Of a stretch of 55,581 nt of DNA, positions 3,879 through 49,049 are shown piece by piece. Source of the DNA: a virus; the IMG/VR virus record IMGVR_UViG_3300045242_000134, positions 1-55,581 of that record. The stretch is one strand, 5' to 3'. Made by a program: the position numbers and the translations under genes. Below the pieces are notes generated by a model, which was given only the letters and a program-made list of their open reading frames with translations, searched no databases and was not told the origin of the DNA. How positions within the stretch are numbered: position 1 is the stretch's first letter; each line of letters opens with the position of its first letter.

Positions 3879-3895
3879 AAAAAATCCATCGCCGT

Positions 3896-3953: not shown

Positions 3954-4006
3954 CAGCAATGTGCTTTCAGTTAAGCAGATGACTTCCTATTCGTCAACTT
4001 CGTAAT

Positions 4007-11058: not shown

Positions 11059-11651
11059 GTATGAATAATAAGTCTAACTTTGTTTTGGTGGCCAAGGTAG
11101 TGATAAAGAAGGAAATCGAATGGGTTTTGATGGACAAGCGAGAGCAACCAGTGTCTTTCGTTTACGCCCTTCAATGCGAAGAAACTTCGCGGGTAAAAAT
11201 AGGAATCACCCAAAATGTGCGCCAACGACTGAAAGACATTCGTGCGATGTGCTCAACGAATCTAAGATTGATTTTGTGCGTACCTGCCATTGGTCAAGAG
11301 GTTGAGTTGTTTCTTCACAGGGAGTTTGACAGGTTCCGGCTGCATGGTGAGTGGTTTGCAATACCGAGAGGTAGGATTGGAAGGCTCACTGGTTTGAAAA
11401 TGGATTACGACAGCAGAATTGAAATGGATGAAGAAGACGCTCCTCCAGAAGAATTTCCCGAAGAAGTTCGAATCAGTATTCGCGAATATCATCGTGAGCA
11501 AGCCTTCCAATCTCAAGAGAAGGAAGACGATATGTCGGCTTCCAATTTTACACCAAAGCCCATAAAAGAGTTTTGGAACGAACGACCGAATGGACCAAGG
11601 TCTTACGAAGCCTCAATCGCTGATTGCTACCCAGAGCACAATAGGATTTGA
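11055..11651 (+). CDS. T5orf172/MUG113-type GIY-YIG-like protein, 198 aa
   Basis: Residues about 34-97 read 'FVYALQCEETSRVKIGIT', 'RLKDIRAMC' and 'ELFLHREFDRFRLHGEWF', the hallmarks of the T5orf172 branch of the GIY-YIG superfamily (Y-A/L, K-I-G, R, then HR.F...R..GEWF). The C-terminal 90 aa are acidic and extended. Such proteins are common near phage replication genes; roles range from nuclease to DNA-binding accessory. It starts in the ATGA overlap and ends immediately before the next ATG. It could be a domesticated endonuclease rather than a homing gene, since it is colinear and coupled with its neighbours. Confidence 0.8.
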   Translation: MSMNNKSNFVLVAKVVIKKEIEWVLMDKREQPVSFVYALQCEETSRVKIGITQNVRQRLKDIRAMCSTNLRLILCVPAIGQEVELFLHREFDRFRLHGEWFAIPRGRIGRLTGLKMDYDSRIEMDEEDAPPEEFPEEVRISIREYHREQAFQSQEKEDDMSASNFTPKPIKEFWNERPNGPRSYEASIADCYPEHNRI

Positions 11652-16557: not shown

Positions 16558-16562
16558 TGGTG

Positions 16563-16790
16563 TTATTGGAATGTTTCGTCGCAATCGCAGCGTATGTGTG
16601 CCATCACTTCCATCATCCAGTCAAGGCACCATGATTCTTCTTTCTTTGAGGCGATGCCTTGTTCTCCAGTGTGAATTCCTTCGCGGTCAGCGATGACAAT
16701 ATAGCGAAAATCTTTTTCACCGAATAACATGAACAAACGCTCGTAATCATCGGGGATTTTGAAATTTGGTTGGATGGTACGGAGGGGCAC
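16563..16790 (-). CDS. Small protein, 75 aa, first gene of minus operon
   Basis: The start is a GTG at 16790; an in-frame TGA lies 6 nt further upstream, so the gene cannot be longer. 'DFRYIVIADREGIHTGEQGI' suggests a compact alpha/beta fold. It lies about 27 nt downstream of the predicted start of the minus promoter in the 16806-16852 inverted repeat. Confidence 0.65.
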   Translation of the reverse strand: MPLRTIQPNFKIPDDYERLFMLFGEKDFRYIVIADREGIHTGEQGIASKKEESWCLDWMMEVMAHIRCDCDETFQ

Positions 16791-16805
16791 AATTCACGAA
16801 AGGTG

Positions 16806-16852
16806 TTGACACATAACGGCGTGATGATAAATAGTCCACAGTTATGTGTCAA
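16806..16852. promoter_or_regulatory. Divergent promoter pair inside a perfect 12-bp inverted repeat
   Basis: TTGACACATAAC (16806-16817) and GTTATGTGTCAA (16841-16852) are perfect complements, so each strand carries a TTGACA -35 box. On the minus strand TATCAT (5/6 to the -10 consensus) follows after 17 nt and would drive the operon at 16790. On the plus strand GATAAA/TAAATA (16826-16833) is a weaker -10 for the structured RNA. The dyad is a natural operator for a dimeric regulator that would control both directions. Confidence 0.65.
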
Positions 16853-17720
16853 GGCGTATCAGGTGCGTCAAAGCGTTCGGGATCCATCCGAACCCGCCGT
16901 GAGGCGTCTTCTACACATAACACCCCGTCGCTCTCCAAGCCTCGGGGATTTTTCACTATGGCAAGGCCCTCAGAAGCTTATCCTGTGAACTTCGACTGTC
17001 ATGGAACGGGAGTGTCTTTCTGTCCTCCCCTAACCTTCCTCAAAGGCATTCGTGCCCTTGGAAACCGGAACATGCTCCAGCCTAAGCAACCCCCACCTTT
17101 GGCCATCCGCCACCGGTGGAGATGCGAATCACCCGACACAAAAGGTCTGTCCGCACAGTGAAAACGTAGCCCAATCCCCGACGCCTGATTACCAGTCAGG
17201 CTTGTGCAAGGTTCGATTGGAACCGGGTTCGGAAGCTCTCCGACAAAAACCCGGACTTCTTCTAACGTGTCGGGTGTATTCTGCTCCGATGACTTTCTGA
17301 CTTCCAACGCCAAACTGTGCGTCGTACACCCTCGTCGTTCTCAAACCACAGGGATCGCTGTCAGCCCCGAAAAGGTGGTGTCCTCGTCGCTGCCAATGCC
17401 AACCCCATCGGCAAGAGCACGCACCCGTTGCAGGCGAAAAGACCAGTGCGAACGAGTACGGTGTGATCAGGTTCCCGATTTCGGGAAGATGATGGAAAAC
17501 CCAAAACCATTTCCGTGACACCACGAAAATGGTCACCAAGGAAAGTCCGCACGGTTTACGGAAGGGATGTTACTCACCCACCCGCGCTCACCAATCGGGG
17601 CCAGGGCAGGGTCTGGTGGGGACGGTCAACCGGGTTTAAGAGATTCCTTAAGCATTCTTTCTCCCTAGCTGCTTGGCTTGCCCTGTGGCGATTACACTAT
17701 GGACCACTATAACGGTAGGG
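16836..17720 (+). ncRNA. Candidate large ornate non-coding RNA, about 0.9 kb
   Basis: Frames up to 116 codons occur, but none has a ribosome site, protein-like composition or coupling, while hairpins are dense. GTTATGTGT (16841-16849) can pair with ACACATAAC (16913-16921) around GTTCGG/CCGAAC. CCCCG/CGGGG is followed by ATTTTT (16923-16952). GGCA-TTCG-TGCC is at 17045-17056 and GCCTGA/TCAGGC at 17183-17201. The two-tier stem CCGGGT/ACCCGG plus TCGGA/TCCGA spans 17223-17254. GGGTGTA/TACACCC is at 17272-17331, TTCCCG-ATTT-CGGGAA at 17472-17487, ACCATTT/AAATGGT with inner CGTG/CACG at 17506-17533, TTAAG/CTTAA at 17636-17651, and long-range CAGGGCA/TGCCCTG joins 17602-17608 to 17679-17685. Size, density, phage setting and own promoter recall GOLLD and ROOL RNAs, but I cannot assign it to either. 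The 3' end is uncertain. Confidence 0.65.
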
Positions 17721-21112: not shown

Positions 21113-21304
21113 ATGAATACTGACGATCCAAAAATAAGAAAGCTTCACAGGGAAACAATCCAGACGCTTAAAGCTATGCAATCATCGGACGATACGGAGT
21201 CGGCGCACGCGGACGCAGATGACGCTTTGTGTCAATTGCTTGGCGCTCTTGGATTCAAAGATGTTGTCACTGAATACCACAAAGTTCCAAAATGGTTCGC
21301 ATGA
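21113..21304 (+). CDS. Small protein, 63 aa, unknown
   Basis: The protein has an acidic helical centre ('DTESAHADADDALCQLLGAL') and a short C-terminal basic segment. ATGA coupling to the next gene. There is no motif I can name. Confidence 0.6.
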   Translation: MNTDDPKIRKLHRETIQTLKAMQSSDDTESAHADADDALCQLLGALGFKDVVTEYHKVPKWFA

Positions 21305-21468
21305 AAATCTTCATCGTCATCTCCGCAGGCTTCGTCTCTGCCGTTTACGCTGACTCAAACTCGGTGGAGGTGGAAATCATCGACCAGGATTCGCTAGAGG
21401 AAGGCGAGCGCGAAAGGCTATTGACGCGAGAGGATGAGATTGCGGGGGAATTTGTTAAGGTCGCATGA
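21301..21468 (+). CDS. Small protein with N-terminal signal-like segment, 55 aa
   Basis: It begins 'MKIFIVISAGFVSAVYADS', a short hydrophobic stretch ending in A-x-A-like residues, then an acidic helix ('DQDSLEEGEREREL'-type composition). It could be a secreted or membrane-anchored micropeptide. Both ends overlap its neighbours. Confidence 0.55.
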   Translation: MKIFIVISAGFVSAVYADSNSVEVEIIDQDSLEEGERERLLTREDEIAGEFVKVA

Positions 21469-21671
21469 AATCTCTAATACTTTACGGCTCACCAACGAAG
21501 CTGACCAACTCGCACAAGTTAGTGACGCGCACAAATAGCGGATTCGCGCCACAACCACCTTACTACGTGCGCGCCCATCTGGTGCCTGTTGGCATCGACC
21601 AAGCCCTTGTGAAGGCTGGTCAAGGAATGATGGAAGGCGAAACCGTTCTTAATACCGTTCCTATAGAATAA
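21465..21671 (+). CDS. Small protein, 68 aa, unknown
   Basis: It starts in an ATGA overlap and ends 2 nt before recT. 'LILYGSPTKLTNSHKLVTRT' suggests a beta-rich fold. No motif recognised. Confidence 0.55.
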   Translation: MKSLILYGSPTKLTNSHKLVTRTNSGFAPQPPYYVRAHLVPVGIDQALVKAGQGMMEGETVLNTVPIE

Positions 21672-21673
21672 TT

Positions 21674-22750
21674 ATGAACCCACAAACCGCCCCACAGGCA
21701 CAAACTGCCGTCGTCGTTGCCCCCAAGCGCGAGATTCGCGTTGTTGAAGATGATTCGCCACTGGCCTACATCATGGACACCGCGAAGTTCGAACACTGCT
21801 ATCGCATTGCCGAAGCCATGTCTCGCGCCAGCCTAATCCCGCAGCATTTGAAAGGCGGCACCAAAGAGGAAACGGCAGCGAATTGCTTTCTCGTCGTCAA
21901 TCAGGCGTTGCGCTGGCACATGGACCCATTCCTAATCGCGCCAGAGACGTACGCAATCCAGGGCAAGCTTGGATACCAAGGCAAGCTCGTTGCGGCAGTC
22001 ATCAACACGCGAGCAAACCTTGCGGAGAAACTGCGCTATGACTTTTCCGGCACCAAGGGAACTGATGATTACACCGTGACCGTCTCAGGACGATTTGAGG
22101 GTGAGGCAGAACCTCGAACAGTCAGTGTCAGCGTCGGGCAGGCCAAGACGCAAAATCAAATGTGGACCAAAGACCCTGAGCAGAAACTTGTTTATACAGG
22201 GAGCATAAGGTGGGCGAGAAGGCACAAGCCAGAGATAATCATGGGCGTTGTGACTGATGACGATCTGGACGCGGTGAGAGAGCAGGCGATGATTGACGGC
22301 ATGAAGCAGGTGAAATCGCCGGTGTTTGACGGCCCGATGCCGCAAGGACTGTCTGAGCCTGCGCCTGAACCAGAGAAACGCACTCGCAAACGCCCCACAA
22401 TGGTGGAAGCGCCTCTTGACTCACCAACGCCGACAGTCCAAGCTGAATCGGCAACAAACCCCACGGCGGCACCGCTCGTCTCTGATTCTTCGACGGTGCC
22501 GCCAACTCCTCCCGTAAACGAAACTCCCGGCGAAAAGGAATTGCGCGAGTTGAATGACGCGCTCAAGAAACTGTGCGCGGATGCGGGGATTAGTGAGGAA
22601 CAGTTGGTGGCGTATATGAGAGCGGAGAAGTGGCTTAAACCGGCCCATAAAAAACCTTCCGACCTTTCAACTACAATGTTGAGAGGCTTCATCAAAGGTT
22701 GGCAAACCAACACAGACGAAATGGTTAAACGGATCAAGAGCGCAAAGTGA
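21674..22750 (+). CDS. recT: RecT-family single-strand annealing protein, 358 aa
   Basis: Residues about 30-215 match the RecT fold: 'RIAEAMSRASLIPQHLKGG', 'FLVVNQALRWHMDPFLIA', 'YAIQGKLGYQGKLVAAVIN' and 'GSIRWARRHKPEIIMGV'. The C-terminal third is a Pro/Thr/Ser linker followed by a small helical domain, which is variable in the family. It anneals complementary strands during recombination or concatemer formation. Its partner nuclease is at 23417, now separated by an HNH gene. Start ATG 21674 is 2 nt after the previous stop. Confidence 0.92.
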   Translation: MNPQTAPQAQTAVVVAPKREIRVVEDDSPLAYIMDTAKFEHCYRIAEAMSRASLIPQHLKGGTKEETAANCFLVVNQALRWHMDPFLIAPETYAIQGKLGYQGKLVAAVINTRANLAEKLRYDFSGTKGTDDYTVTVSGRFEGEAEPRTVSVSVGQAKTQNQMWTKDPEQKLVYTGSIRWARRHKPEIIMGVVTDDDLDAVREQAMIDGMKQVKSPVFDGPMPQGLSEPAPEPEKRTRKRPTMVEAPLDSPTPTVQAESATNPTAAPLVSDSSTVPPTPPVNETPGEKELRELNDALKKLCADAGISEEQLVAYMRAEKWLKPAHKKPSDLSTTMLRGFIKGWQTNTDEMVKRIKSAK

Positions 22751-23454
22751 ATTGCTCAGTTATTAATTGCAGACGACCGGCACGAAACAAGGGTTTGTGT
22801 GATGCGCATTACCAGAGATCGCGCACTCCAAAAGGTCTAATGCCCGGAAAACCTATTGGCGATAAGTCTGGGGAGAACAACCCCAATTGGAACGGAGGAC
22901 AGAAAGAACAAGATGGAAGAATTTATATCCATGTTCCAGATCATCCCCGAGCGAAAAAGAGCGGATACGTGGTGAGGGCAAGGTTGGTAATGGAGAAATC
23001 AATTGGCAGGCTTCTTTCTCCCGAGGAGGTGGTTCATCATAAAAACCAAAACACGCTGGACGACAGAATAGAAAATCTTCAACTGCTTGCCAATGATGCC
23101 GAACATGCACGAATTCATAAGCAAAAACTCATTGAGCACAATGGTACTACGCTTAGTGTAGTCCAATGGGCGGCAAAGATTGGAATAAGAAGTAACACCA
23201 TTTACGACAGGCTCAAAAAAGGCTGGACGGTAGAAAAAGCCTTAACAACTCCATCAATATACGAGGGTAAAAACGTCCTTTTAACTTCAAATGGATTAAC
23301 CCTCACCGTCGCTGAGTGGTCGAAAAGAACAGGGATTAAAGACGACTGCCTTCGAAGAAGGATTATACTCGGATGGTCGGACGAAAAGGTAATCAATACT
23401 CCCGTGAGGATAAAAAATGGAAGACCCAAGACTCGGACTCCCATCGGCAAGTAG
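22747..23454 (+). CDS. HNH homing endonuclease with repeat DNA-binding modules, 235 aa
   Basis: GTG 22747 overlaps the recT stop. An N-terminal zinc knuckle (CSVINCRRPARNKGLCDAHY) precedes the HNH core 'EEVVHHKNQNTLDDRIENLQ' (residues about 94-113). Two copies of an 'TLSVVQWAAKIGIRSNTI...RLKKGWT' / 'LTVAEWSKRTGIKDDCL...RIILGWS' module follow (NUMOD/IENR-type helix-turn-helix). It is on the coding strand here and overlaps the next gene start by 38 bases. It therefore sits inside an operon without breaking it, exactly between recT and its exonuclease. Confidence 0.9.
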   Translation: MNCSVINCRRPARNKGLCDAHYQRSRTPKGLMPGKPIGDKSGENNPNWNGGQKEQDGRIYIHVPDHPRAKKSGYVVRARLVMEKSIGRLLSPEEVVHHKNQNTLDDRIENLQLLANDAEHARIHKQKLIEHNGTTLSVVQWAAKIGIRSNTIYDRLKKGWTVEKALTTPSIYEGKNVLLTSNGLTLTVAEWSKRTGIKDDCLRRRIILGWSDEKVINTPVRIKNGRPKTRTPIGK

Positions 23455-29111: not shown

Positions 29112-29416
29112 TTGCCATTGTTATCAAGCGAGCATCTGAAAAGTGTTCCGTTTGGTGACTGCATAAACAGAGTGGAACACTTGATGCCGTTTTCAACAGC
29201 AAGATCATGAATGGTGGTAAGGCCGTTGTTGTCAACGATAACACCCAGGTCCGAACTGTTGAGTAGGCTCACGCTGATTGCTTGCTGGTCGAATTGAAGG
29301 CGAGCGGTTTGTTTGTCAACGCCAATCCCAGAGCTTTTCAAGACAGCCAAATTGCTTTGAGAGTCAGCGGTCAAAACCAATCCAGTGCTACCATCGGATA
29401 ATGTTAAGTTTTGCAT
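29090..29416 (-). CDS. Beta-rich protein, 108 aa, unknown
   Basis: 'MQNLTLSDGSTGLVLTADSQ' and later hydrophobic/polar alternation suggest a small all-beta protein, perhaps a virion accessory. No family recognised. It overlaps the secreted protein gene by 22 bases. Confidence 0.65.
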   Translation of the reverse strand: MQNLTLSDGSTGLVLTADSQSNLAVLKSSGIGVDKQTARLQFDQQAISVSLLNSSDLGVIVDNNGLTTIHDLAVENGIKCSTLFMQSPNGTLFRCSLDNNGNWINVAV

Positions 29417-29460
29417 ATCAATAGTTGCGTCTTATACATGAATTTAGGATTATACGCAAT

Positions 29461-29500
29461 GAGCGCCGGTTGTCGCCGGTCGCCCATCGCTAAACACAAC
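29461..29500 (+). repeat. 40-nt motif shared with 54682-54720, upstream of an HNH-like gene
   Basis: It begins GAGCGCC and ends TAAACACAAC. About 33 of 40 positions match the complement of 54682-54720 with one gap. GTTGT/ACAAC could close a hairpin. In both places it lies 12-25 nt before the start codon of an HNH-like gene, in the same orientation to that gene. Confidence 0.7.
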
Positions 29501-29512
29501 GCCATTATCGTT

Positions 29513-29989
29513 ATGCCTTCCAAAACATTTACCACACTTACACATGGACAAGCAAGGAGAGGAAATCGCACCCGAGAGTATGAAACTTGGTTGAGAATGC
29601 GTGCGAGATGCACCAATCCAAAATCAAAGGATTACAAAAATTATGGTGGTCGTGGGATTGTAGTTTGCGAACGCTGGAAAAACTTTGAAAAATTTTATGA
29701 AGATATGGGGCCAAGACCAGATAGGCATTCTCTTGACCGAAAAGAAAACAATGGCAATTACGAGCCATTAAATTGCAGATGGGCTACAAAACAGGAGCAA
29801 ATTGAAAACAGGAGATGTAATCGAAATTTCACTATCAATGGAGTGACCGGGACAATGACCGCACTTGCTCGTTATTTTGGATTGAAGCAACAAATAGTAC
29901 AGGCGCGAATTGATAGGTTGGGATGGAACCCTGAAAAGGCTTTTCTTACACCAGTTGGTAAAATAACTCGATGGAAACAGAATGGCTAA
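29513..29989 (+). CDS. HNH-like homing-type protein (NYGGRGI...GNYEP.NCRWAT family), 158 aa
   Basis: ATG 29513 follows the shared motif. 'EYETWLRMRARCTNP', 'NYGGRGIVVCERWKNFEKF', 'DMGPRPDRHSLDRKENNGNY' and 'PLNCRWATKQEQIENRR' are the hallmarks of a widespread phage family usually labelled HNH or AP2 endonuclease; the LDR...NCRWA part aligns with the third HNH segment with His replaced. A C-terminal helix-turn-helix ('MTALARYFGLKQQIVQARI') would recognise DNA. It is the only plus-strand gene in a long minus-strand block. Confidence 0.82.
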   Translation: MPSKTFTTLTHGQARRGNRTREYETWLRMRARCTNPKSKDYKNYGGRGIVVCERWKNFEKFYEDMGPRPDRHSLDRKENNGNYEPLNCRWATKQEQIENRRCNRNFTINGVTGTMTALARYFGLKQQIVQARIDRLGWNPEKAFLTPVGKITRWKQNG

Positions 29990-31910: not shown

Positions 31911-32158
31911 CCACCAAGAGCGGTCACAATATTACAAAGCAGAAGCACCTGCATTGCAGACAGGTTCCCGCCCGTACATTCGAAGCAACGCGCCTCATTT
32001 GCAATGAACCCCGGATCGGTTGAAGCCCCAGGAATCAACGCAGCTCGAATTTGAGCGAGCAGCATCGTCTGCACTGCCATGTGGCCACCGAATGGTATGC
32101 AGGTATCGAAACAAACTGCGGCGTTGGCCAATGTCGTTGGGTCACAAGAAATTGCCAC
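31907..32158 (-). CDS. Small cysteine-rich virion protein, 83 aa
   Basis: 'SCDPTTLANAAVCFDTCIPF' and 'ARCFECTGGNLSAMQVLLLC' are two copies of the cysteine module seen once in each of the two genes downstream. The whole protein is little more than this module, so it may be the minimal particle-binding unit or a capsid decoration. Confidence 0.7.
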   Translation of the reverse strand: MAISCDPTTLANAAVCFDTCIPFGGHMAVQTMLLAQIRAALIPGASTDPGFIANEARCFECTGGNLSAMQVLLLCNIVTALGG

Positions 32159-32455
32159 TTAGTAACCTCCCGCCGAAGTCTCAGACGCCATGCCGTCCAT
32201 TTCGTCCATAGAATCAGCCATGCCAGATTTTTCTTTGTCCTTCTCCTCGCCGGTGGCGTAAGCAATTTCAGCCTCGCCTTCGTGAAGTCGGACTACCTTG
32301 AACACGTACTCCTCACCGACTTTAGGCTCGTGCTTGCCGAACATTGATTTCGGCAATAAAGAAGTTTCTCCCTCTGTGCCCTCCTCTTGCTTTTCAGGCG
32401 GGTCGTCGGATGACTCACCGGGATCGCCGCCGTAATAGTCAGAATCCTCTGCCAT
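32159..32455 (-). CDS. Acidic head-region protein, 98 aa
   Basis: ATG 32455 ('MAEDSDYYGGDPGES') is chosen; upstream codons to 32521 would overlap the capsid leader region. The first half is very acidic. The middle 'KVGEEYVFKVVRLHEGEAEI' looks like a small beta barrel and is common in phage genes next to capsid. A decoration or assembly-helper role is inferred from position. Confidence 0.65.
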   Translation of the reverse strand: MAEDSDYYGGDPGESSDDPPEKQEEGTEGETSLLPKSMFGKHEPKVGEEYVFKVVRLHEGEAEIAYATGEEKDKEKSGMADSMDEMDGMASETSAGGY

Positions 32456-32524: not shown

Positions 32525-34168
32525 TTAGACTTCGAACGGTAAAGAAAATGACGCGCATGGCCCGGTCAATTGGATCTGCGTTGCGTTCAACACAGTCCAT
32601 GTGCCCGCGACTTCCAGCACGAAGTTCAATTGAGTGACCAACGCCGCCAGTGTGGTTGTTCCAGAAAGCTGACCATGAGAAACGGGTCCGCCTTCGCAAA
32701 TGGCGCTGTTTGCCGCCACTTCGTAATCACCACGCACGGAGTTAAGAACAGGCGCGAAGGTGATGACTGTGTTAATCGGAATCGGGCTGGTGCCGGTGTG
32801 TTCATCCGCGCAACTGGTGTTGGCGCTGTTGTAGGTCTGAACAGGATAGCCGGGATCGGCGTTGCAAGTCTGAATTTCGATAACGCAAGAAGGCTCGCGT
32901 TTGTGCATGATAAGCACGCCAAATTCAGTGTGGTCAGGTGCAATCGCCTGCTTAAAGTCGGCAATGAACTGGCCTTTGTTGCGGCGTTTGTTTTCGATGA
33001 CGCAACCGTTCACATCCGCGCCAAGGTTATCCATGACAAACTGCCACTTGCCACCGAAGTTACGAGCGGCGAACGGCATCTCGGGATTAACCGGCTGCGC
33101 TTCTGATACGAGCACTTCCAACACCTTCGGATGCCAGATGTAAGACCATGTGTATTGAGCGGTATCGAAGTCAGGATTGGGAATCGACTTGAGTCCCGAC
33201 GCACTACCTGCGCCCGATGACGGCACGTTTTTGTACGGCAGCACAATCTGATAACGGAACAGACCATTGACTACGCCCACGAAGTTGAAGCGCAATCCCA
33301 TCTGGTCAACGCGCACTGAGTAGTCACCAAGTTGGCCCATGAATCCGTACTGCCAGTATTTGCTGGCTGCATCCCACTGCTCAAAGCGCCAATTGCCGGA
33401 TACCGATGGAACTCCACCAACACCCTGTTGACCACCAAGCCGGTCAAGTTCCCATTTGGTTTCGTTATCGGTGACAAGCTGAATCATCGGCGGATGTTTC
33501 TCGCCGTAGGGGTTCTTGCCGCCATAACCAACACGCAGCAGTGGATCAACCAACCGCTGCAACATCTGCGGGGTCAGCTTGAACACGCTGGTGTTTGGAA
33601 CATTGGTGTCGATGTAGATTTCTTCGTCGCCAGCGCCAGCAATCACGAAGTTGAAAGTGAAGTTGGACAACGGCCCACCAAAGTTACGGTTGGCAATAAA
33701 CTTATTGTCAACGTATTGAGCAGCGCGTTTGCGGAGGAAGTTGTCCTGAATAAAGACCGTCGCCGGTTTCAAAATGTCGCTGATGATGTAGCTCCACTGC
33801 TTCTTGGCGTGGGTAATGTGCATCTCCTGGTCGAAGCACAACAGGTCAGACTGCCAGCTTTGTTCCTCCAGAAATTCAGTGATCCGCGTGCTTCCCCAAC
33901 CAATGCGATGTTCATTCTTATCGCAGGGCGTCCCCAAACAGTTGCCGCTGTTGGTCGCAATCCACGTCTTGGTGGTATTGGGATAGACGTTATTGAATCG
34001 GTCGCGGGTGTGCTGCGTGCCACTCCATGCCTCCCACGTTCCGCTGGTGACATGCGGTATCCATCCGGCGTAAACCGGGCGAATATCTTCGATGATGTAT
34101 TTGTCGAAAACCGGCTGTTGATCGACCAAAAATTGTGTGAACTGACTACAACTTAAAATTCTTGCCAT
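32525..34168 (-). CDS. Probable major capsid protein, 547 aa
   Basis: The gene lies downstream of a scaffold-like gene, has a long structured leader, and its product has the length and globular composition of a HK97-fold coat with an extra domain. Motif-like parts are 'FDKYIIEDIRPVYAGWIPHV' near the N-terminus and 'FVMDNLGADVNGCVIENKRR' near residue 375. The last 130 aa are cysteine- and beta-rich and could be an accessory domain on the outer surface. I do not have a family name. The call rests on order (portal, ATP-grasp, scaffold, GroES, this gene) and size. Confidence 0.65.
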   Translation of the reverse strand: MARILSCSQFTQFLVDQQPVFDKYIIEDIRPVYAGWIPHVTSGTWEAWSGTQHTRDRFNNVYPNTTKTWIATNSGNCLGTPCDKNEHRIGWGSTRITEFLEEQSWQSDLLCFDQEMHITHAKKQWSYIISDILKPATVFIQDNFLRKRAAQYVDNKFIANRNFGGPLSNFTFNFVIAGAGDEEIYIDTNVPNTSVFKLTPQMLQRLVDPLLRVGYGGKNPYGEKHPPMIQLVTDNETKWELDRLGGQQGVGGVPSVSGNWRFEQWDAASKYWQYGFMGQLGDYSVRVDQMGLRFNFVGVVNGLFRYQIVLPYKNVPSSGAGSASGLKSIPNPDFDTAQYTWSYIWHPKVLEVLVSEAQPVNPEMPFAARNFGGKWQFVMDNLGADVNGCVIENKRRNKGQFIADFKQAIAPDHTEFGVLIMHKREPSCVIEIQTCNADPGYPVQTYNSANTSCADEHTGTSPIPINTVITFAPVLNSVRGDYEVAANSAICEGGPVSHGQLSGTTTLAALVTQLNFVLEVAGTWTVLNATQIQLTGPCASFSLPFEV

Positions 34169-34380
34169 ACTCGCTAAAAGTTTTGCGTTTACCGCTATGC
34201 TCCTGAACGCATCAAATGCGCAGAAGGCTTACGCTACTCTTAGGAGTGCCTCCCCTAACTCTGGTCTTTCGACCGGCTAACGCTCGTGCCTACACGTAAT
34301 TGAAAGGCCGATTCCAATGTGACCATTGGCAGTCTCGGTTGCCTACCCGAGCTATGGCAATTGAAGCACTAACAGAAATA
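34169..34380 (-). ncRNA. Hairpin-rich 5' leader of the capsid gene
   Basis: Read on the minus strand, the 212-nt leader holds CTCGG/CCGAG (34334-34351), CCAATG-GTCA-CATTGG (34314-34329), CGTG-TAGG-CACG (near 34285-34296), the GNRA hairpin GGTC-GAAA-GACC (34263-34274), TTAGG/CCTAA (34240-34258), CGCAT-TTG-ATGCG (34208-34220) and a stem near the ATG. No frame is protein-like. Possible roles are mRNA stability, translational control by coat protein, or a packaged RNA. Confidence 0.6.
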
Positions 34381-34400
34381 AGAAATCCGTCAAGAGGAAA

Positions 34401-34459
34401 GTGCAGGTCTGGGATTTGAACCCATCCAAGGGCACCTGCTGGACCTTTCGCTTCATGCA
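34401..34459 (-). ncRNA. Truncated tRNA-like element, no D-arm
   Basis: The minus strand reads GTGCATG at the 5' end and CCTGCAC at the 3' end (6 of 7 pairs), with an intact T-arm TGGG-TTCAAAT-CCCA. Only 28 nt lie between, room for one arm (AAGG/CCTT) but not for both D and anticodon arms. No CCA is encoded (TTT follows). It could be a degenerate tRNA or a processing signal. Confidence 0.45.
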
Positions 34460-34465
34460 CGAAGA

Positions 34466-34608
34466 TGGCAGGCGAGGCAGGAATCGAACCTGCGGTGATT
34501 GCGGCGTCCGTTCGGCGGGCCTATCGCATAGGGGATTACCCGTTTCGTTTGCCCCGCCGCGTCGGAAAACGCTGTCTAACGCTGAGTCCACCATTTCTCT
34601 ACTCGCCT
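34466..34608 (-). ncRNA. Expanded tRNA-like element, 143 nt with encoded CCA
   Basis: Acceptor AGGCGAG/CTCGCCT pairs perfectly. D-arm GAG-(AAATGGTGGA)-CTC, T-arm GCAGG-TTCGATT-CCTGC and terminal GCCA are all canonical. Between D- and T-arms there are 89 nt instead of about 22-40. These can form GCGT/ACGC, GGCGGG/CCCGCC and CCTAT-GCG-ATAGG but no clear 7-nt anticodon loop. It may be an intron-bearing tRNA, an extreme variable-arm tRNA or a tmRNA-like RNA. It lies 6 nt before the truncated element on the same strand. Confidence 0.6.
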
Positions 34609-34614
34609 TATAAA

Positions 34615-34938
34615 TTATCCCAACACGCACACTATCTCATCGTAATTCACAATGCGATAGTCGCCACTGCCCACCTTAACCTCGCTGCCAGTGTAACGAT
34701 GGGCAATGACCCGCTGCCCAATCTTCACCTCAGATTCGATCTCAGTGCCGTCTTTAGCCACACGACGACCAAGAGCCAATACGATAGCCTCCTGAGACTT
34801 TTCCTGTGACGATTCGGGAATAACCAGCACGCTTTTAATCTCAGTGCGTTCAGGGTCAACGGTCTTCACCAAGACTTTATTGGTCAATGGGCGTGTGATG
34901 CGGGCTTTCAATTTGACGTTGCCTCGGTTGAACCACAT
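34615..34938 (-). CDS. GroES/Cpn10-like co-chaperonin, 107 aa
   Basis: 'RPLTNKVLVKTVDPERTEIK' then 'VLVIPESSQEKSQEAIVLAL', 'VKIGQRVIAHRYTGSEVKVG' and 'DYRIVNYDEIVCVLG' follow the GroES pattern (P..D.VLVK, IP..A.EK...G.V.AVG, VK.GD.V....Y.G.EV...DEE..I....DILA). It would cap the host GroEL to help fold the capsid protein, as T4 gp31 does. Position directly before the capsid leader supports that. ATG 34938 is chosen; the first 10 residues are not GroES-like. Confidence 0.85.
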   Translation of the reverse strand: MWFNRGNVKLKARITRPLTNKVLVKTVDPERTEIKSVLVIPESSQEKSQEAIVLALGRRVAKDGTEIESEVKIGQRVIAHRYTGSEVKVGSGDYRIVNYDEIVCVLG

Positions 34939-35768
34939 TGAGACGCAACAACGCTCTGCTGGTCGCATTCGGAATGGAATGTATCCTTCTCGCTTCTAAA
35001 CCAGCGTGGGCCAGTGCCGTGCCATGAGTTGGTTACTGGTGAGTATCCCCATTTGAATCGACCGCCGCATTTAGAGCAACGCGAGAAAGCCCACCGCTTG
35101 AAATCCTGCAATGGATGACATTGAAATTTCCAGTGCCAGAAATGCCACCTTGGGTGTTTCCACCAAGGACGTTTCAAATCCAACAACCCGCGAGCAACAC
35201 CGCACAGGATTCCATGGAAATGGTCACGGCGATGCTCCTCTGAGTCTTTTTCGAAGTTGGTGTGATACCCCGGGAGAAAACAGAAAACATCACCAGCATG
35301 GCCCCCCGTGCGGATGTGCATAGATTCGGCGGCGTATCTTGAAACTTCATCAAGTGACAATCTGAGTTTCAGCACTCGACACACCAGTAAGACCAATCCT
35401 CGGTAAAGAAACTCAGCTTCGGCTATGCTTCTATCCCATTTTTTACCAAGGCAAATCAGGAAGTGCGGATCGTGCCCCTCGGACCATGCGGTGTTGCGCA
35501 AAATCTCGCGTTGTTTTTTGGTTATCTTTGGATAGCCCCACCCACAAGAATCATCCGTGCCGTCTTTTTCGGGGTCAACATGCCAAATGGTGATAAACGT
35601 GTTACGATACCCGTCTTCCCAAAATGAATCGCGATCTATAATGCCCGATTCTGTCATTCGCTTGAATGCCCACCTTCTGTCACCGCTATCTCGAAACTTC
35701 TTTGGCCAAGGTTTGTGTTTCCACCATGGATACTTAATTTCGTGAGCTACTGTTTGGGGGTCGTGCAT
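34908..35768 (-). CDS. Conserved hypothetical phage protein, 286 aa
   Basis: The N-terminal part 'HEIKYPWWKHKPWPKKFRD' and 'FITIWHVDPEKDGTDDSCGW' is a pattern I recall from uncharacterised proteins of environmental phages ('W.KHKP.PK.FR...R.WA.K', 'TFIT.WH.DPE.DG.DDSC.W'). Histidines and tryptophans are abundant. CSKCGG and nearby Cys may bind zinc. The 3' end overlaps the GroES start. Role unknown. Confidence 0.75.
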   Translation of the reverse strand: MHDPQTVAHEIKYPWWKHKPWPKKFRDSGDRRWAFKRMTESGIIDRDSFWEDGYRNTFITIWHVDPEKDGTDDSCGWGYPKITKKQREILRNTAWSEGHDPHFLICLGKKWDRSIAEAEFLYRGLVLLVCRVLKLRLSLDEVSRYAAESMHIRTGGHAGDVFCFLPGYHTNFEKDSEEHRRDHFHGILCGVARGLLDLKRPWWKHPRWHFWHWKFQCHPLQDFKRWAFSRCSKCGGRFKWGYSPVTNSWHGTGPRWFRSEKDTFHSECDQQSVVASQCGSTEATSN

Positions 35769-40089: not shown

Positions 40090-40578
40090 TTAGGGGACAA
40101 CAAGACCAAGTTGTTTATTTGTTAGAGCAAAATCTCCCCAACGCTTTACAGCTTCGGCGTCATATGCCGCTACCGCATCTTTAAGACTAGAAAACCGTTT
40201 TACAAATCTGCTCGGTCCAACACCAACTCTGACATTCCACTTGCTGTTAAACTTATCCCAAGAAACACCCTTGTATCCAGAAGTATTGGTTTTCCTTTTT
40301 TTGGAGTGACCCATGTTGTTTGCATGGGTGGTTCTCTTGAGGTTGTGCTTCTGATTATTTAATCCGTTATGATCTTCGTGGTGAATTATGGTTCCTTTTA
40401 TCTTTCCCATTACCATTTCGTGCATTCTCATCACAGATCTTCCTAAATGAGTTTGAGCATACCAAATATCATCGCTTTTGCTGGCTTTTTCGGCAGACCA
40501 CTTATGCCTGAAAAGTAATTCAAAATCTTCGTCATCAACCAAGGCAAATCTTCCTCTGGTTAGCGGGATTGTCTTCAT
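40090..40578 (-). CDS. HNH endonuclease with AP2 domain, 162 aa
   Basis: 'RHKWSAEKASKSDDIWYAQT' (N-terminal NUMOD4-like part), 'RMHEMVMGKIKGTIIHHEDH' and 'GLNNQKHNLKRTTHANNMGH' form the HNH core (HHEDHNGLNN). 'SGYKGVSWDKFNSKWNVRV' and 'RFSSLKDAVAAYDAEAVKRW' are an AP2/ERF DNA-binding domain. It is on the same strand as its neighbours and overlaps the portal stop by 4 bases (ATGA), unlike the antisense copies elsewhere. Confidence 0.9.
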   Translation of the reverse strand: MKTIPLTRGRFALVDDEDFELLFRHKWSAEKASKSDDIWYAQTHLGRSVMRMHEMVMGKIKGTIIHHEDHNGLNNQKHNLKRTTHANNMGHSKKRKTNTSGYKGVSWDKFNSKWNVRVGVGPSRFVKRFSSLKDAVAAYDAEAVKRWGDFALTNKQLGLVVP

Positions 40579-43865: not shown

Positions 43866-43972
43866 CAGTTCCAAAAGAATCTATACTGACATTCGTAATA
43901 ATCAGTTCGCCACGGCTTTTTAACAAGCACTGTGGCGTAGCCATTGAGCATACAAATATAAAGATGCTTCAT
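43865..43972 (-). CDS. Micropeptide in sugar cassette, 35 aa
   Basis: ATG 43972 overlaps the radical-SAM stop (ATGA) and its own stop overlaps the methyltransferase start (TGATG). It opens 'MKHLYICMLNGYATVLVKK' and has an aromatic end. Coupling on both sides argues that it is translated. Confidence 0.55.
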   Translation of the reverse strand: MKHLYICMLNGYATVLVKKPWRTDYYECQYRFFWN

Positions 43973-45054
43973 GGCTCCCACTTCTTTCTGTCCACCAAAT
44001 GAAAATACATATTCGTTCGATACTTCAAACATTGCTTACAAAAAGCGTGCCCCGTTCGCTGCTCAATCATCTGCTCCGGCGTCGCGTCCAGATAATCAGT
44101 GAGCTTCAATCGCCTGTCAGCGGTGCACGCGCACAACGAAGTCTGCCCATCGTGACGGATGAAAGTAAACATCCCACCTGCACCTACCGGACACACGGAA
44201 GAAACTGGATACTCCTTATACATCTCACGAGCATTCGTCGGGGGTATCTTCAAACGCTCCATCGTTGCGATATAAGTATCGCCAACCGGGGGAAGAATTT
44301 TATTCCAGTCAGGCTTACCTTCAACCACTTCGAAGGGTGTGGCATCGGGGTCTTTGGAGCGGCAATATTGAATCGCATTCTCCATTGAAATCGCACGCGC
44401 CATTGAGGTAAAGAAACCAAGACCGAGATTCTTAGCATACTCGCGCATTGGTTCAATCTCGTGTTCGTTATCGTTATAGACGTGGTAGTTCACCGATATA
44501 CGAACGCGGCGTTCTTCTGGTATGCGATTGTTGGTTTCGGCCAGTATCCGCATGTTCTCTTTAACTCGTTCGATGTTGCCGCCAGCATGACCGCGAACGT
44601 AAATGTCTTGGGTAAACCCTGAGAGACTAATGATGATGAAATCGGGACGAGCGGTTAACACTTCCTCAACGCGATTGAGTTTGTTCAGATTAGTGGACAT
44701 TTCGGGATGCAGTCCCCAATCGTGAACGGCGGTAATGCACTCCGGTAAATTGGGATGCAGAAATGGCTCACTGTTGCCATACATAAAGACTATCGCATTG
44801 GAATTTTCCTTAGCGATTTTCTCAAGTATGGAGTTCATTAAATCCATGTCCATGAAACCACTTTTGTGTTCATAACGAAGTCCTTGAATCGGACGCTGAT
44901 TACCCTTGGTGCAGGTTGGACAGAATAGGTTGCAGGCGCTTCCGATCTCCAAAAACACCCGCCACGGTTTCAGCTTCACCGTATCCGCGCTGATAGCGCC
45001 GTCTATGAACGGGATGCAGGAGTCGGCGTAGGCTTGTTGGAGGGCGGTGGTCAT
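43969..45054 (-). CDS. Radical SAM enzyme with SPASM-like C-terminus, 361 aa
   Basis: ATG 45054 is 8 nt after the upstream stop; an alternative at 45087 overlaps it. 'EIGSACNLFCPTCTKGNQRP' carries CxxxCxxC for the 4Fe-4S cluster. 'FMYGNSEPFLHPNLPECITA' is the GGEP-like motif; 'LSGFTQDIYVRGHAGGNIER' is typical of the barrel. C-terminal Cys (VCPVGAGGM, CACTAD, FCKQCLKY) look like a SPASM or twitch auxiliary cluster. Targets in relatives are peptides or sugars. In this cassette a sugar or virion-peptide modification is plausible. Confidence 0.88.
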   Translation of the reverse strand: MTTALQQAYADSCIPFIDGAISADTVKLKPWRVFLEIGSACNLFCPTCTKGNQRPIQGLRYEHKSGFMDMDLMNSILEKIAKENSNAIVFMYGNSEPFLHPNLPECITAVHDWGLHPEMSTNLNKLNRVEEVLTARPDFIIISLSGFTQDIYVRGHAGGNIERVKENMRILAETNNRIPEERRVRISVNYHVYNDNEHEIEPMREYAKNLGLGFFTSMARAISMENAIQYCRSKDPDATPFEVVEGKPDWNKILPPVGDTYIATMERLKIPPTNAREMYKEYPVSSVCPVGAGGMFTFIRHDGQTSLCACTADRRLKLTDYLDATPEQMIEQRTGHAFCKQCLKYRTNMYFHLVDRKKWEP

Positions 45055-45061
45055 ACAAAGT

Positions 45062-46024
45062 TCATTCCTTTTCCCATATTTGCTCAAAGAAGCCTTCGGC
45101 CCTTAAAGGCAACGCTGGTTTTCGAGAGATGAGTTTGAGATTGGTGTTGGCCGAAACAACATCTCCAATGTGAGTTGCGAGTTCGTGATTTACTGATACA
45201 AACCTTCCCTTCTTTCGGAGCACTCTCTCAATGGATTTCACGCAATCTATTTGATCGTGCGAAAGAAATTCAACAATAGAATCTTCATTTACAACCAGAT
45301 CCATTTCTGTATCAGGCCAAGCCAATCCATGCACATGGACTGGGAAAAATCTGTCCTTAAGCTCTCCGTTTAACCAGACCTTATCCTCACCTATTTTCGC
45401 CATGGACAGGAATGCGAAAATAGATGCCATTATGAATAAATCTCGGGCGTGCCAAGTAATTCCAGGAATTTGCAATGCGAGCGCGGAAAGCCCCCCAGTT
45501 CCTGGACCTATTTCCAACACCGAGGCATTTGTAAGCATTGGCGCAAGTGTTTTGAAAAGCATGGTGTAATGCGCCACTCTCGGCTGAATCAGTTTTGTGT
45601 CCATGACTAGTCCACATGCTCCAAATGATTGCGGAATGCTTATATCGACACCCAAGCAAGTTTCAATTGACGACACTGCGTCTGCTAAGTTGTTTGGGGT
45701 TGGCAATCCCAACTCGATTGCACAAGATGAAATTGTCGATTTGATAAATTCAGGGTAGTTCTCTCCGGGCCACTGAGAGTCTGCATAGTATTTGGGTAAA
45801 TCTACTCCGTGGAGAATTGAGCCGTCGTATAAGTGTTCGAGTTCCTTTCGGATGGTGGGCACATCGCCTCCAGACAGAATGTCATGGAACTTTTTTTGAC
45901 AGGAATCGAATATCATACCCCAAGTTGATTGCGGTGGGGCTGGAGAAGATCTGCGGGAGTAAAACTCCACCACTCTTTTTATTGCGTTGTCAGAGAGTGG
46001 ACACCCGTAACATTGTGTGATCAC
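45062..46024 (-). CDS. SAM-dependent methyltransferase (sugar O-methyltransferase-like), 320 aa
   Basis: GTG 46024 overlaps the stop of the gene upstream (GTGA). 'ASVLEIGPGTGGLSALAL' (motif I, residues about 169-186) is preceded by a 165-aa helical domain, as in putative sugar O-methyltransferases. 'MDLVVNEDSIVEFLSHDQI' and 'LRKKGRFVSVNHELATH' complete the fold. The substrate is unknown. Confidence 0.8.
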   Translation of the reverse strand: MITQCYGCPLSDNAIKRVVEFYSRRSSPAPPQSTWGMIFDSCQKKFHDILSGGDVPTIRKELEHLYDGSILHGVDLPKYYADSQWPGENYPEFIKSTISSCAIELGLPTPNNLADAVSSIETCLGVDISIPQSFGACGLVMDTKLIQPRVAHYTMLFKTLAPMLTNASVLEIGPGTGGLSALALQIPGITWHARDLFIMASIFAFLSMAKIGEDKVWLNGELKDRFFPVHVHGLAWPDTEMDLVVNEDSIVEFLSHDQIDCVKSIERVLRKKGRFVSVNHELATHIGDVVSANTNLKLISRKPALPLRAEGFFEQIWEKE

Positions 46025-46704
46025 GTCCCAATCCCCCCCGCATAATAATTCTTTACCTTCGGCAATCGTGGCCCAATGCTCAAAATCACCTCTGCCTCAA
46101 AGCGACTGTCAATCGAGTCAATCCCTGAATCTTTGATGCGTTGCCTTGTCATCACGCTTGGAAGTGTTCTCAAGAACGAAGCTCTAACCCAATAACAGGT
46201 GCCCGCGAAATAGAATTGACTCTTGTCCCATCCCTGACCAGTTAGCCAATGCGCTCCGCAACTTTCGTACCCTTCACGTAAATCCTTGACGCATAATCGC
46301 CAGTCTTCCACGCAATGCTTCATCATTCTTGCCCTCCAAGGCGTTGACATATTTTTTTCGTAATCGGATCCGATTGCGTGAGTCGCTCCCTTGCTGTGGA
46401 AATTTAAAATGTAAGCCTCGGGTTTGAAATTTCTGCACCAGTCTTCAATCATCAACAATGTTCGAAGTTCGTTGCGACATTGCAACCCGTGATAGGTGAC
46501 AATCGCCTTTCGCGGTATCAACGCTTCAACGAAGTGTTTGCTCTCGTCGCCGCCGTTTACACCAACTCGAAATTCGTCACAGGCATCAAGCAACCCGCTG
46601 TCTTTGAGCGCCGTCATCTGCTTGTAAACGATGGAAGGCGCGGCGGGCAAGACCTTGGCTCCGATTTGGAACAGGCAGTGATAAAAAACTATGATAGGCG
46701 TCAT
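46021..46704 (-). CDS. Glycosyltransferase-like protein (RgpF/capsular type), 227 aa
   Basis: ATG 46704 overlaps the upstream stop. 'PIIVFYHCLFQIGAKVLPAA', 'YILNFHSKGATHAIGSDYEK', 'WRARMMKHCVEDWRLCVKDL' and 'FYFAGTCYWVRASFLRTLPS' match the pattern of surface-polysaccharide glycosyltransferases (H.HSKG; G.FW.A...LR.LP). No signal or transmembrane segment. Confidence 0.75.
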   Translation of the reverse strand: MTPIIVFYHCLFQIGAKVLPAAPSIVYKQMTALKDSGLLDACDEFRVGVNGGDESKHFVEALIPRKAIVTYHGLQCRNELRTLLMIEDWCRNFKPEAYILNFHSKGATHAIGSDYEKNMSTPWRARMMKHCVEDWRLCVKDLREGYESCGAHWLTGQGWDKSQFYFAGTCYWVRASFLRTLPSVMTRQRIKDSGIDSIDSRFEAEVILSIGPRLPKVKNYYAGGIGT

Positions 46705-47384
46705 GGTGATGGCCAATACGGTGGACTCGTGAGGCGGTCGCCCACAATAATGTTGTGCTGCGTTCCTTGATGAAATCCACCAGCCATGCTGTCACAGTTA
46801 TGAAGTGGCAGCACGCAATCCCAACCAACGATATAGGCAGGCAAGCCTTTTGAAATTGCGAATTGAGTTATGGAGTTTTCAGAATGCTCCCATGGATACC
46901 TCTGGCTGTTATCGGTCACTTTGAATGGATGTTCATTTAACAGTTTAGGATTACACCAGAAGCCCGTTGTGCGTACATGCGGCCACACGTTTACGCGAAT
47001 ATCGCCCTGATTTCCAGAACAACCGTAGAGTCCATCGCCGTAGCAATTGTAAGCGCCCATCATTCGGCGCAACCATCCTGGACGGCGGAAGTAGCTGCTG
47101 CCTCCAAAGAACACCATTAGGTCACACGGGATACGTAGAGCGGCAAACTGATAAGCGCCAATGTCCATGCCCACGTTGTCACGACTCAAGAACATCGCGC
47201 CACCAATACTTGAGAACTGTTCGATAGCTCTCGCGTCAGGCTTTCCGCCGTTGCTCACCACAATCATTTGGTGGTCTTTGTGTGGTGGATTGTTGCGGTA
47301 GCTGGTCACAAAGTGTTCGGCGTAATCCGCGTGCTGTGGTCCGAAGTTAGCGGTTGGATAGTTGTAACAACAAACAATCTTCAC
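46701..47384 (-). CDS. Glycosyltransferase-like protein, 227 aa
   Basis: GTG 47384 overlaps the upstream stop (GTGA). 'HQMIVVSNGGKPDARAIEQF', 'LSRDNVGMDIGAYQFAALRI' and 'FFGGSSYFRRPGWLRRMMGA' are typical of the NxGxDIGAY family that adds rhamnose or other sugars to surface glycans. It probably works with the next gene. Confidence 0.75.
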   Translation of the reverse strand: MKIVCCYNYPTANFGPQHADYAEHFVTSYRNNPPHKDHQMIVVSNGGKPDARAIEQFSSIGGAMFLSRDNVGMDIGAYQFAALRIPCDLMVFFGGSSYFRRPGWLRRMMGAYNCYGDGLYGCSGNQGDIRVNVWPHVRTTGFWCNPKLLNEHPFKVTDNSQRYPWEHSENSITQFAISKGLPAYIVGWDCVLPLHNCDSMAGGFHQGTQHNIIVGDRLTSPPYWPSP

Positions 47385-47482
47385 TCCTCACCATCCCACC
47401 AGTTGAGAAAACAAGCCAAGGCCAGCCACGCAATTAGCACGATCTGTTTGAACAGCCCACGTTCTTCGTATTCGTCGCTCAT
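47381..47482 (-). CDS. Single-span membrane micropeptide, 33 aa
   Basis: ATG 47482 opens 'MSDEYEERGLFKQIVLIAWL' with a hydrophobic helix 'IVLIAWLALACFLNWW'. It overlaps both neighbours by 4 bases, so it is probably translated. It may anchor cassette enzymes to the membrane. Confidence 0.6.
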   Translation of the reverse strand: MSDEYEERGLFKQIVLIAWLALACFLNWWDGEE

Positions 47483-47694
47483 CGTCTCACCCCAATCTTC
47501 GCAAGTATCTGCCTGCCAATTTGAGAGTTAATGTAAACCTCCTTGAGATTTTTCATCTTGCAAAATATCTGAGCGGAAGCGAACAAGTTGAATGAGGCTA
47601 TGTCTCCGTTTTCCCAATAGACTCGACCATCCAATGTAAACAGCAGATAGCGTTCAAATACCCGATCCCAAAGAATGATGACGGGAGTGATCAC
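47479..47694 (-). CDS. Small protein, 71 aa, in sugar cassette
   Basis: GTG 47694 overlaps the stop of the large glycosyltransferase. 'MITPVIILWDRVFERYLLFT' then 'LDGRVYWENGDIASFNLF'. Beta-rich start, basic C-terminal helix. No family. Confidence 0.55.
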   Translation of the reverse strand: MITPVIILWDRVFERYLLFTLDGRVYWENGDIASFNLFASAQIFCKMKNLKEVYINSQIGRQILAKIGVRR

Positions 47695-49049
47695 GCCAAC
47701 ATCTCCTCTGACAGTTTGTAATACGCTCCCGGTCGTTCAATTCTCGTGTTGGGATTTTTCGTCCACTCCTCGACCACCACTTTCTTGTGCAGTCCGTGGG
47801 CAATCGCCAGTGGTAGGCTTTGATTCATCACGCATAGCTTCGCACCTGCAATCACTCTCGCCAACTCCAAAGCGTCTTTAGTAGGTCGATAATCAAACTT
47901 GCATTGAGGGGCAAATCCGCAGAACGCTTCATATTCTTGAGGCGTGCCCACAAACGTCATTTGCCGGTGAAATTTCTCAATGAACCGCGTCCAGTTGAAG
48001 TCAAGATTCTGATAGCGGGCCGTTCGATTCACTATGATGGGCTTGTCTGGAATTACAACTGGTTCTGGTACGGCCAACCATGGGACAGATGGCATGGGCA
48101 ACGAGAAAGCGTCCATGTGCAGCTTTAGTATAGAATCGAAATCGCGTGCGGTTCGATTTCGCCACGGAATGCGAAATCGGTTCAGGTCGTGTGTCGTTGA
48201 TGCCGGATGCCCGTGCGTGTAACGACATTTCAAAATGTAAGGCTGCGCTTCGACCAACGGCGCGAGGTTATCCACCCAATCAGCTTCGCCGCCCATCCTG
48301 GCCCAACGGCTGTTGAGCGGATACGGATAACGATTGTGCGGCGTGAGAAACATCATACCGCCGCCAAGAGCCTTGACCGCTGCGAGGCTATAAATCAGAT
48401 CGCCAGCATCGCCAGAGTGAGTGAATATGTTGCAGACGCGATGTTCGGCGGGAAGTGGTGTGAGAAGGCTATGGAAACCAAATTGGTTGTGCCAGTGGCT
48501 ATTGGTTCCGCCCCATTCTTTTCCATTCCAAGAACGCCCCTCAAAAGCAAATCGTTTTGCAATTTCCGGTGGAGCAAATCTAAATCCAGCCTTCTCGATT
48601 TCATCGCGGTGCCGAACGCAGATGCACGAGTCCTCTGGGTGGAAGTCATCCCACGGTTGTTTTGAAATCCATTCCATCAGCTTTTTGCTTCGGAGCGAAA
48701 AACCACCGTTCCCTATGATGCCACTCGGATTAAACGGAGCGCCAATGTAATCATACTTCAAAAAATCATCAGCCCACGCCTGCCCGTTCAAAACAAAACC
48801 ATCGTATTGGCAAATTAGCGCGTGAGTGGTATCCACATACTTGTGCATTTCACGGATGCAGAATTTGGAGTAATCATCAAGACCCGAAATGAGCGGTAAA
48901 ACTTTGCTATGGAACCATCGACTATTCAAAAACTTCACGTCTCCAAAGTCACACTGGTCCATGGACTTCTTCATTGCCATTTCAGACCAATGGGCTTTAT
49001 CCGTGCAATCCGCGCACAACAAAGTGACTTGTGGAAGCTTGGGCTTCAC
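47691..49049 (-). CDS. Two-domain glycosyltransferase: DUF5672-like plus GT-B/GT9-like, 452 aa
   Basis: Residues about 1-190: 'THALICQYDGFVLNGQAWAD', 'KYDYIGAPFNPSGIIGNGGF' and 'SLRSKKLMEWISKQ' are the DUF5672 signature (CQYDGF, DYIGAPW, GNGGFSLRS). Residues about 200-452: 'NIFTHSGDAGDLIYSLAAVK', 'IIVNRTARYQNLDFNWTRFI', 'MTFVGTPQEYEAFCGF' and 'VIAGAKLCVMNQSLPLAIAH' look like a GT-B fold near family 9 (heptosyltransferase-like). The fusion suggests two successive glycosyl transfers or a donor-acceptor pair. Confidence 0.8.
   Translation of the reverse strand: MKPKLPQVTLLCADCTDKAHWSEMAMKKSMDQCDFGDVKFLNSRWFHSKVLPLISGLDDYSKFCIREMHKYVDTTHALICQYDGFVLNGQAWADDFLKYDYIGAPFNPSGIIGNGGFSLRSKKLMEWISKQPWDDFHPEDSCICVRHRDEIEKAGFRFAPPEIAKRFAFEGRSWNGKEWGGTNSHWHNQFGFHSLLTPLPAEHRVCNIFTHSGDAGDLIYSLAAVKALGGGMMFLTPHNRYPYPLNSRWARMGGEADWVDNLAPLVEAQPYILKCRYTHGHPASTTHDLNRFRIPWRNRTARDFDSILKLHMDAFSLPMPSVPWLAVPEPVVIPDKPIIVNRTARYQNLDFNWTRFIEKFHRQMTFVGTPQEYEAFCGFAPQCKFDYRPTKDALELARVIAGAKLCVMNQSLPLAIAHGLHKKVVVEEWTKNPNTRIERPGAYYKLSEEMLA

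Follow-up and report, generated by a model that had tools for sequence, protein, structure and literature searches.

Bacterial Y RNAs (YrlA) are tRNA mimics in which a tRNA-like module carries a second functional domain, and in engineered tRNA scaffolds a foreign RNA replaces the anticodon loop while the tRNA body gives stability. tRNAs are also targets of anti-phage immunity (PMC11555353, PMC12851939), and phage tRNAs evade the retrons and other defences that target tRNAs (PMC11555353). In IMG/VR record IMGVR_UViG_3300045242_000134, of which the whole stretch of 55,581 nucleotides was analysed (the window), we observed a 143-nt tRNA-like element on the minus strand (34608-34466, 5' end at 34608). 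Like canonical phage tRNAs, including tRNA-Leu, it has acceptor, D and T arms, G18G19, the T-loop and CCA, but it has no anticodon loop, carries two hairpins on the anticodon stem and was not called by ARAGORN. An insertion in the anticodon arm is shared with intron-containing tRNAs (group I in bacteria, bulge-helix-bulge in archaea); here, however, excision restored no anticodon arm, no intron family matched, and promoter-like sites of bacterial type lie nearby. A tRNA body with an insert is also the plan of tmRNA, whereas the 143-nt RNA is far shorter, has a D stem and is without a tag frame or support from Rfam or ARAGORN. Unlike in YrlA, the anticodon stem bears the second domain and the acceptor stem has the normal tRNA form, and unlike the engineered scaffolds for recombinant RNA (e.g. 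PMC3753655) the RNA is natural and conserved in phages. It resembles the phage tRNAs of PMC11555353 as a phage-made tRNA or tRNA mimic of possible counter-defence use, but it would be unable to decode, and a counter-defence role is putative.

Features of the tRNA-like locus, with positions in the window, strand and supporting observations.
Feature	Position	Strand	Observations
Whole 143-nt tRNA-like RNA gene	34466..34608	-	acceptor, D and T arms, CCA; homologues L085/G001, G013, G022; covariation
Acceptor stem, 5' strand AGGCGAG	34602..34608	-	pairs with 34470-34476 (CTCGCCT); 7 bp, perfect
D arm GAG-AAATGGTGGA-CTC	34584..34599	-	A14, G18G19, A21 present; tRNA-Leu-like
Anticodon stem, 5' strand GCGTT	34578..34582	-	pairs with GACGC 34504-34508
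Junction AGACA, in place of the anticodon-loop start, without U33	34573..34577	-	AG(A/C)CA or TGACA in homologues
Hairpin H1 GCGT-TTTCCG-ACGC	34559..34572	-	2/4 pairs altered on both sides
Hairpin H2, 8-position stem GGCGGGGC/GGCCCGCC, one G-G mismatch, 29-nt loop	34514..34558	-	4/7 pairs altered on both sides
Conserved 29-nt H2 loop AAACGAAACGGGTAATCCCCTATGCGATA, inner GGG/CCC	34522..34550	-	26/29 identical in G013
Junction GAACG	34509..34513	-	GAACA in G013 and G022
Anticodon stem, 3' strand GACGC	34504..34508	-	covariation
Variable region CGCAATCACC (10 nt)	34494..34503	-	sequence
T arm GCAGG-TTCGATT-CCTGC	34477..34493	-	5-bp stem, perfect
Acceptor 3' strand CTCGCCT, G73 and encoded CCA	34466..34476	-	sequence
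Small acceptor + T-arm element	34402..34440	-	one match per window, 0.28 expected; absent in G001

The body features of a canonical tRNA were all observed (7-bp acceptor, D arm with GG, T arm TTCRANY, CCA), together with U8, A26 and a D stem of 3 bp. The D arm is close to that of the tRNA-Leu(UAA) in the putative host MAG, and the T arm matches the 3' ends of annotated phage tRNAs. Exactly 90 nt separate the D arm from the T arm, made up of A26 and the 89 nt which the first-pass annotation had reported along with perfect arms and CCA, and this part of its description was borne out. A scanner written for this analysis, which seeks acceptor, D and T arms and tolerates gaps of up to 400 nt, matched only this element in the window and gave no acceptor + D + T match in the first 80 relative loci. 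Sixty Markov-simulated windows yielded zero matches with a D arm and 0.08 per window for acceptor and T arm alone. The element is real and not a chance arrangement.

A canonical 7-nt anticodon loop with U33 and a readable anticodon was not observed; 69 nt with two hairpins stand there instead. The homologues share one order of parts, in which A26 is followed by a 5-bp anticodon stem at its normal place, a junction, H1, H2, the junction GAACR, the variable region and the T arm, with an H1 loop of 6 to ~60 nt. Energy minimisation folds the window RNA into a long rod, which we rejected as the structure since its own pairs break in the divergent homologues (only 16 of 27 kept in G013 and 10 of 27 in G022). 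The pairs unique to the tRNA-like fold were kept in both of these (17 of 17).

The closest homologue, in contig IMGVR_UViG_3300045282_000096 (G001, also L085), was found with a D-arm pattern and sits between the scaffold and capsid genes. Over 138 nt it shares 98% identity with the window RNA; the DNA of the capsid genes reaches only 68%, and the direct flanks of the RNA do not align. Two full compensatory pairs separate the acceptors of the two RNAs, and one base separates the remainder. A DNA search of 50 whole relatives gave a divergent homologue at 32095-32250 of G013, far from the capsid gene among small ORFs, and a covariance model recovered further homologues, including the more divergent G022. 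These finds answer the suggestion of the first-pass annotation that relatives be searched for the 89-nt insert. The anticodon stem reads GCGTT/GACGC in the window, GCCCT/GGGGC in G013 and CCCTG/CGGGG in G022, and both sides were altered in four of its five pairs, as in five of the seven acceptor pairs among the four homologues. The H2 loop is 29 nt long in the window, G001 and G013 and absent in G022.

When the four sequences (three members with the full design and the 29-nt loop, and one more divergent) were aligned, 100% of the cells paired and 17 of 34 pairs were altered on both sides; the alignment was fitted to the model and so favours the modelled structure, though the changes can still be read by eye. 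Slid partners gave 1-4 such changes, and none of 500 shuffles reached 17. A tRNA body whose covarying anticodon stem closes two hairpins, the design that we propose for this over-long family, was thus found in four homologues. The compensatory changes and the placement of the insert on a 5-bp anticodon stem strengthen the original view of a non-canonical tRNA-like RNA.

The near identity of the G001 copy may reflect recent exchange rather than selection, because other segments shared by G001 and the window are also 94-98% identical. These segments (window 16562-17321, 21301-21708 and 10798-11059, against about 65-80% for the rest) we read as recent mosaic exchange. For the RNA itself, exchange with G001 at exact boundaries, as of a mobile element, and selection cannot be told apart. 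DNA searches of cultured phages and plasmids matched only tRNA 3' ends and other short stretches. Part of the insert, used as a pattern, found no match across 84,980 prokaryote genomes, and loop patterns of 17-19 nt gave, beyond G001 and G013, chance matches inside other sequence only.

As first annotated, the element stands before the capsid gene (ORF 32525-34168, minus strand). It is intergenic and on the coding strand, just before a promoter-like site and the leader of that gene. A consensus scan detected no promoter or terminator at the element itself, so the RNA is probably cut from the operon transcript. About a hundred relatives of the capsid gene were observed in IMG/VR, most of them with nothing tRNA-like before it, and none of the capsid protein in the phage collection searched for cultured phages; a portal search gave a single relative. 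The window probably derives from a phage of Verrucomicrobia, for which a capsid relative in a Pedosphaera MAG (Verrucomicrobiota), there on a small contig, is weak evidence.

The capsid leader itself (34169-34395, minus strand, about 200 nt) starts at a TTGACR-N17 promoter-like site. In L002, L003, L004, L013, L020 and others, TTGACA occurs 200-250 nt before the capsid ATG and is followed by GC-rich hairpins, and immediately ahead of the ATG comes a AAAACUUUU-like or CUUCAAAA/UUUUGAAG stretch; the leader is possibly a conserved regulatory RNA of the capsid gene. A GroES-like co-chaperonin gene (34615-34968, minus strand) belongs to the head operon and adjoins the capsid gene. Free-standing HNH endonuclease genes were observed at 3342-3959, 22747-23454, 29411-29989 and 40090-40578, and in L002 the site ahead of the capsid promoter that the tRNA-like RNA occupies in the window is taken by an HNH-like ORF. 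Radical SAM, methyltransferase and DUF5672 genes (43969-49049, minus strand) were also observed in the structural half of the genome, and a radical SAM-like gene lies beside the portal in L085.

The smaller acceptor + T-arm element was present as first described, with a 6-bp acceptor GCAGGT/ACCTGC (seventh pair A-A), an 8-nt spacer and a T arm ATGGG-TTCAAAT-CCCAG (outer pair A-G), but chance alone is expected to give 0.28 such elements per window. Eleven elements of this type occurred in 100 stretches of relatives (about 1.85 Mb), which is near chance. The gap to the large element is 25 nt under strict boundaries and not 6 nt as annotated, and the idea of a tandem pair acting as a unit did not hold, with the small partner near chance level and only the large one in G001. 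The 25-nt proximity is suggestive; the small element is probably a tRNA remnant or a product of chance.

We extended the survey to 34 relatives and to portions of further ones, 100 stretches in all (L106-L205). ARAGORN reported one ordinary tRNA-Leu and one undetermined tRNA among these, and ordinary tRNA-Met genes were present in G053 and G055; ordinary tRNAs are rare in these phages. The scanner returned over-long tRNA-like genes in G035 (131 nt), G001 (a second gene, 100 nt), G018 (130 nt), G008 (128 nt), G011 (125 nt), G022 (149 nt) and G013 (156 nt), and the covariance model added genes in G022 (188 nt), G056 (158 nt) and G072 (131 nt). Including the window and G001 copies the total is about twelve, of 100-188 nt, carried by ten records out of about 95 from related phages; the 95 include many fragments. 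We excluded a 165-nt candidate from G005 (L119), whose score did not exceed that of shuffles. As a control, 43 of 45 scanner matches in three tRNA-rich GenBank phages and one IMG/VR phage were 74-94 nt long, and the two longer ones are probably cross-pairings in tRNA arrays.

The over-long genes represent more than one design. Those of G035 and G072 keep a Met-like CAUAA loop in the second hairpin and have an extra hairpin between the D and anticodon arms, while that of G018 keeps a class II variable arm and only its anticodon hairpin is enlarged. Tests for splicing gave a single product (CAT) for the G035 gene, and this member could be different in that respect. In related phages, tRNA-sized genes at L302 1501-1578 and L184 12078-12150 could not be assigned by ARAGORN because their anticodon loop has 6 or 8 nt. 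A further structured stretch precedes a small gene at window 10684-10770 (plus strand) and at L108 5430-5515, and consists of a GAATGCAG...CTGCATTC closing stem, a D-arm-like ATTGGTAG and a CCCTTGGCCGGG hairpin; its G001 counterpart has another stem and the same CCCTTGGCCGGG, followed by the 100-nt tRNA-like gene of that phage.

The checks with ARAGORN in tRNA and tmRNA modes that the first-pass annotation had proposed gave no standard call: in default, intron and tmRNA modes at default thresholds, 0 genes were called at the element. Rfam returned no family at its cut-offs and only noise at E values up to 10, with nothing beyond noise for the bacterial Y RNA (YrlA) family and only 15.7 bits for tRNA-Sec (gathering 47). 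A tRNA-Sec or other tRNA with a long variable arm does not fit, as covariation places the insert inside the anticodon stem. An overlapping 92-aa ORF (34352-34630) is not supported as coding, because the loop differences fall at codon positions 1, 2, 3 and 1 and the arms covary. No antisense partner of the 29-nt loop was found in the phage's own genome, where the only match of at least 9 nt was the loop itself.

An insert exactly on the anticodon stem of a tRNA-Leu-like body could also mean a working phage tRNA, probably Leu, with an anticodon-arm intron of ~55-65 nt that splices itself out or is excised by an unknown enzyme; ARAGORN with introns allowed does call some other over-long genes of related phages, and the Rfam tRNA model accepts that of G018 (34.2 bits). 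We removed every single stretch between the D and T arms and looked for a canonical anticodon arm, with a 5-bp stem and a U33-containing 7-nt loop, but none was obtained from the window, G013 or G022 elements (the G001 interior equals that of the window apart from one loop base). Relaxed rules gave 2 products in the window against 3.4 in shuffles and some in G013 at other places, and no anticodon agreed between homologues. To our knowledge the insert is too short for any known group I intron, Rfam gave no intron match, and the window proteins that were scanned included no splicing endonuclease and no RNA ligase. One review places every phage intron known at its time in protein genes, with none in tRNAs (PMC3984707). 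Because no single excision restores a canonical anticodon arm, splicing is not supported; we consider it improbable, and so is the intron option that the annotation had left open. Another of its options was a tmRNA-like RNA; a rescue RNA of this type, whose mRNA part would be very short, is highly improbable and was rejected. The tRNA body has a large insert as such an RNA would, the G072 gene has a weak Rfam tmRNA match (14 bits, E 0.05, gathering 47), and a stretch GCAAACGA resembles the start of a tmRNA tag frame. Yet the D stem is a proper one, no G3-U70 pair is present, the GCA frame has no stop within the element, no tag frame closes with a stop held in common, GCA is not kept in G013, and the loop changes hit all three codon positions.

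The annotation also named a structural or processing role, which may apply; in one form of it, RNase P cutting would split the portal-scaffold-GroES transcript from that of the capsid and protect the mRNA 3' end, the insert being secondary. In favour of this, the window element is intergenic, on the strand of the genes, and directly precedes the promoter-like site and leader of the capsid gene; the G001 copy is likewise between scaffold and capsid genes, and both parts of a tRNA that RNase P reads, acceptor and T arm, are perfect. Against a processing signal of this kind, the RNA and the capsid gene lie far apart in G013, most relatives have no element there, and neither a D arm nor a conserved 29-nt loop would be needed; we regard it as unlikely, if less so than splicing. 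A degenerate tRNA drifting with an insertion would fit the ordinary tRNA-Leu and tRNA-Met genes of relatives, the wide variation of over-long genes between phages and the remnant-like small neighbour, but decay is hard to reconcile with compensatory changes in the acceptor, anticodon stem, H1 and H2, with no pair broken in any homologue, and with 26 identical positions of the 29-nt loop between divergent phages. A pseudogene thus seems about as improbable as a spliced tRNA.

Since the same or similar RNAs occur in related phages, we favour a real family of non-decoding RNAs over an ordinary phage tRNA. Our main reading, to which we give a probability of roughly 45%, is that the 143-nt RNA is tRNA-derived and non-decoding and uses the tRNA body as a scaffold for an inserted domain. 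It is probably derived from tRNA-Leu and processed as a tRNA: from what is known of tRNA biology, RNase P would cut it from the late operon transcript at the acceptor 5' end, and the mature CCA end would be the encoded one or be added by the CCA enzyme. Sequence and covariation show a retained L-shaped body (acceptor, D-loop/T-loop elbow and anticodon stem), which would be stable, with the anticodon loop exchanged for a three-way junction bearing H1 and H2. Codon reading should be impossible because there is no U33-containing 7-nt loop. The body would then present the inserted domain, mainly the 29-nt H2 loop. Our best guess as to function is a protein ligand, in which the domain would bind a host factor that acts on tRNA or binds RNA, and so serve as a decoy for it or inhibit it (an anti-phage nuclease that targets tRNA is one example), or would bind a phage factor.

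Given that tRNAs are targeted by anti-phage immunity, a non-decoding tRNA mimic can be tested directly as a counter-defence. In the literature searched, which lay mostly outside subscription journals, we came across no account of RNAs of this type, and there is a fair chance that they form a new RNA class. Somewhat more tentatively than the main reading, we propose that a probably verrucomicrobial phage lineage has made tRNAs into stable, CCA-ended, non-decoding scaffolds that present exchangeable structured domains where the anticodon loop was, and that may counter a host factor acting on tRNA or stand in for it. Counts of phage tRNAs come from software that requires an anticodon; if tRNA-bodied RNAs without one are indeed many, a class of phage non-coding RNA goes unseen, and the tRNA body would be reused in nature as a scaffold.
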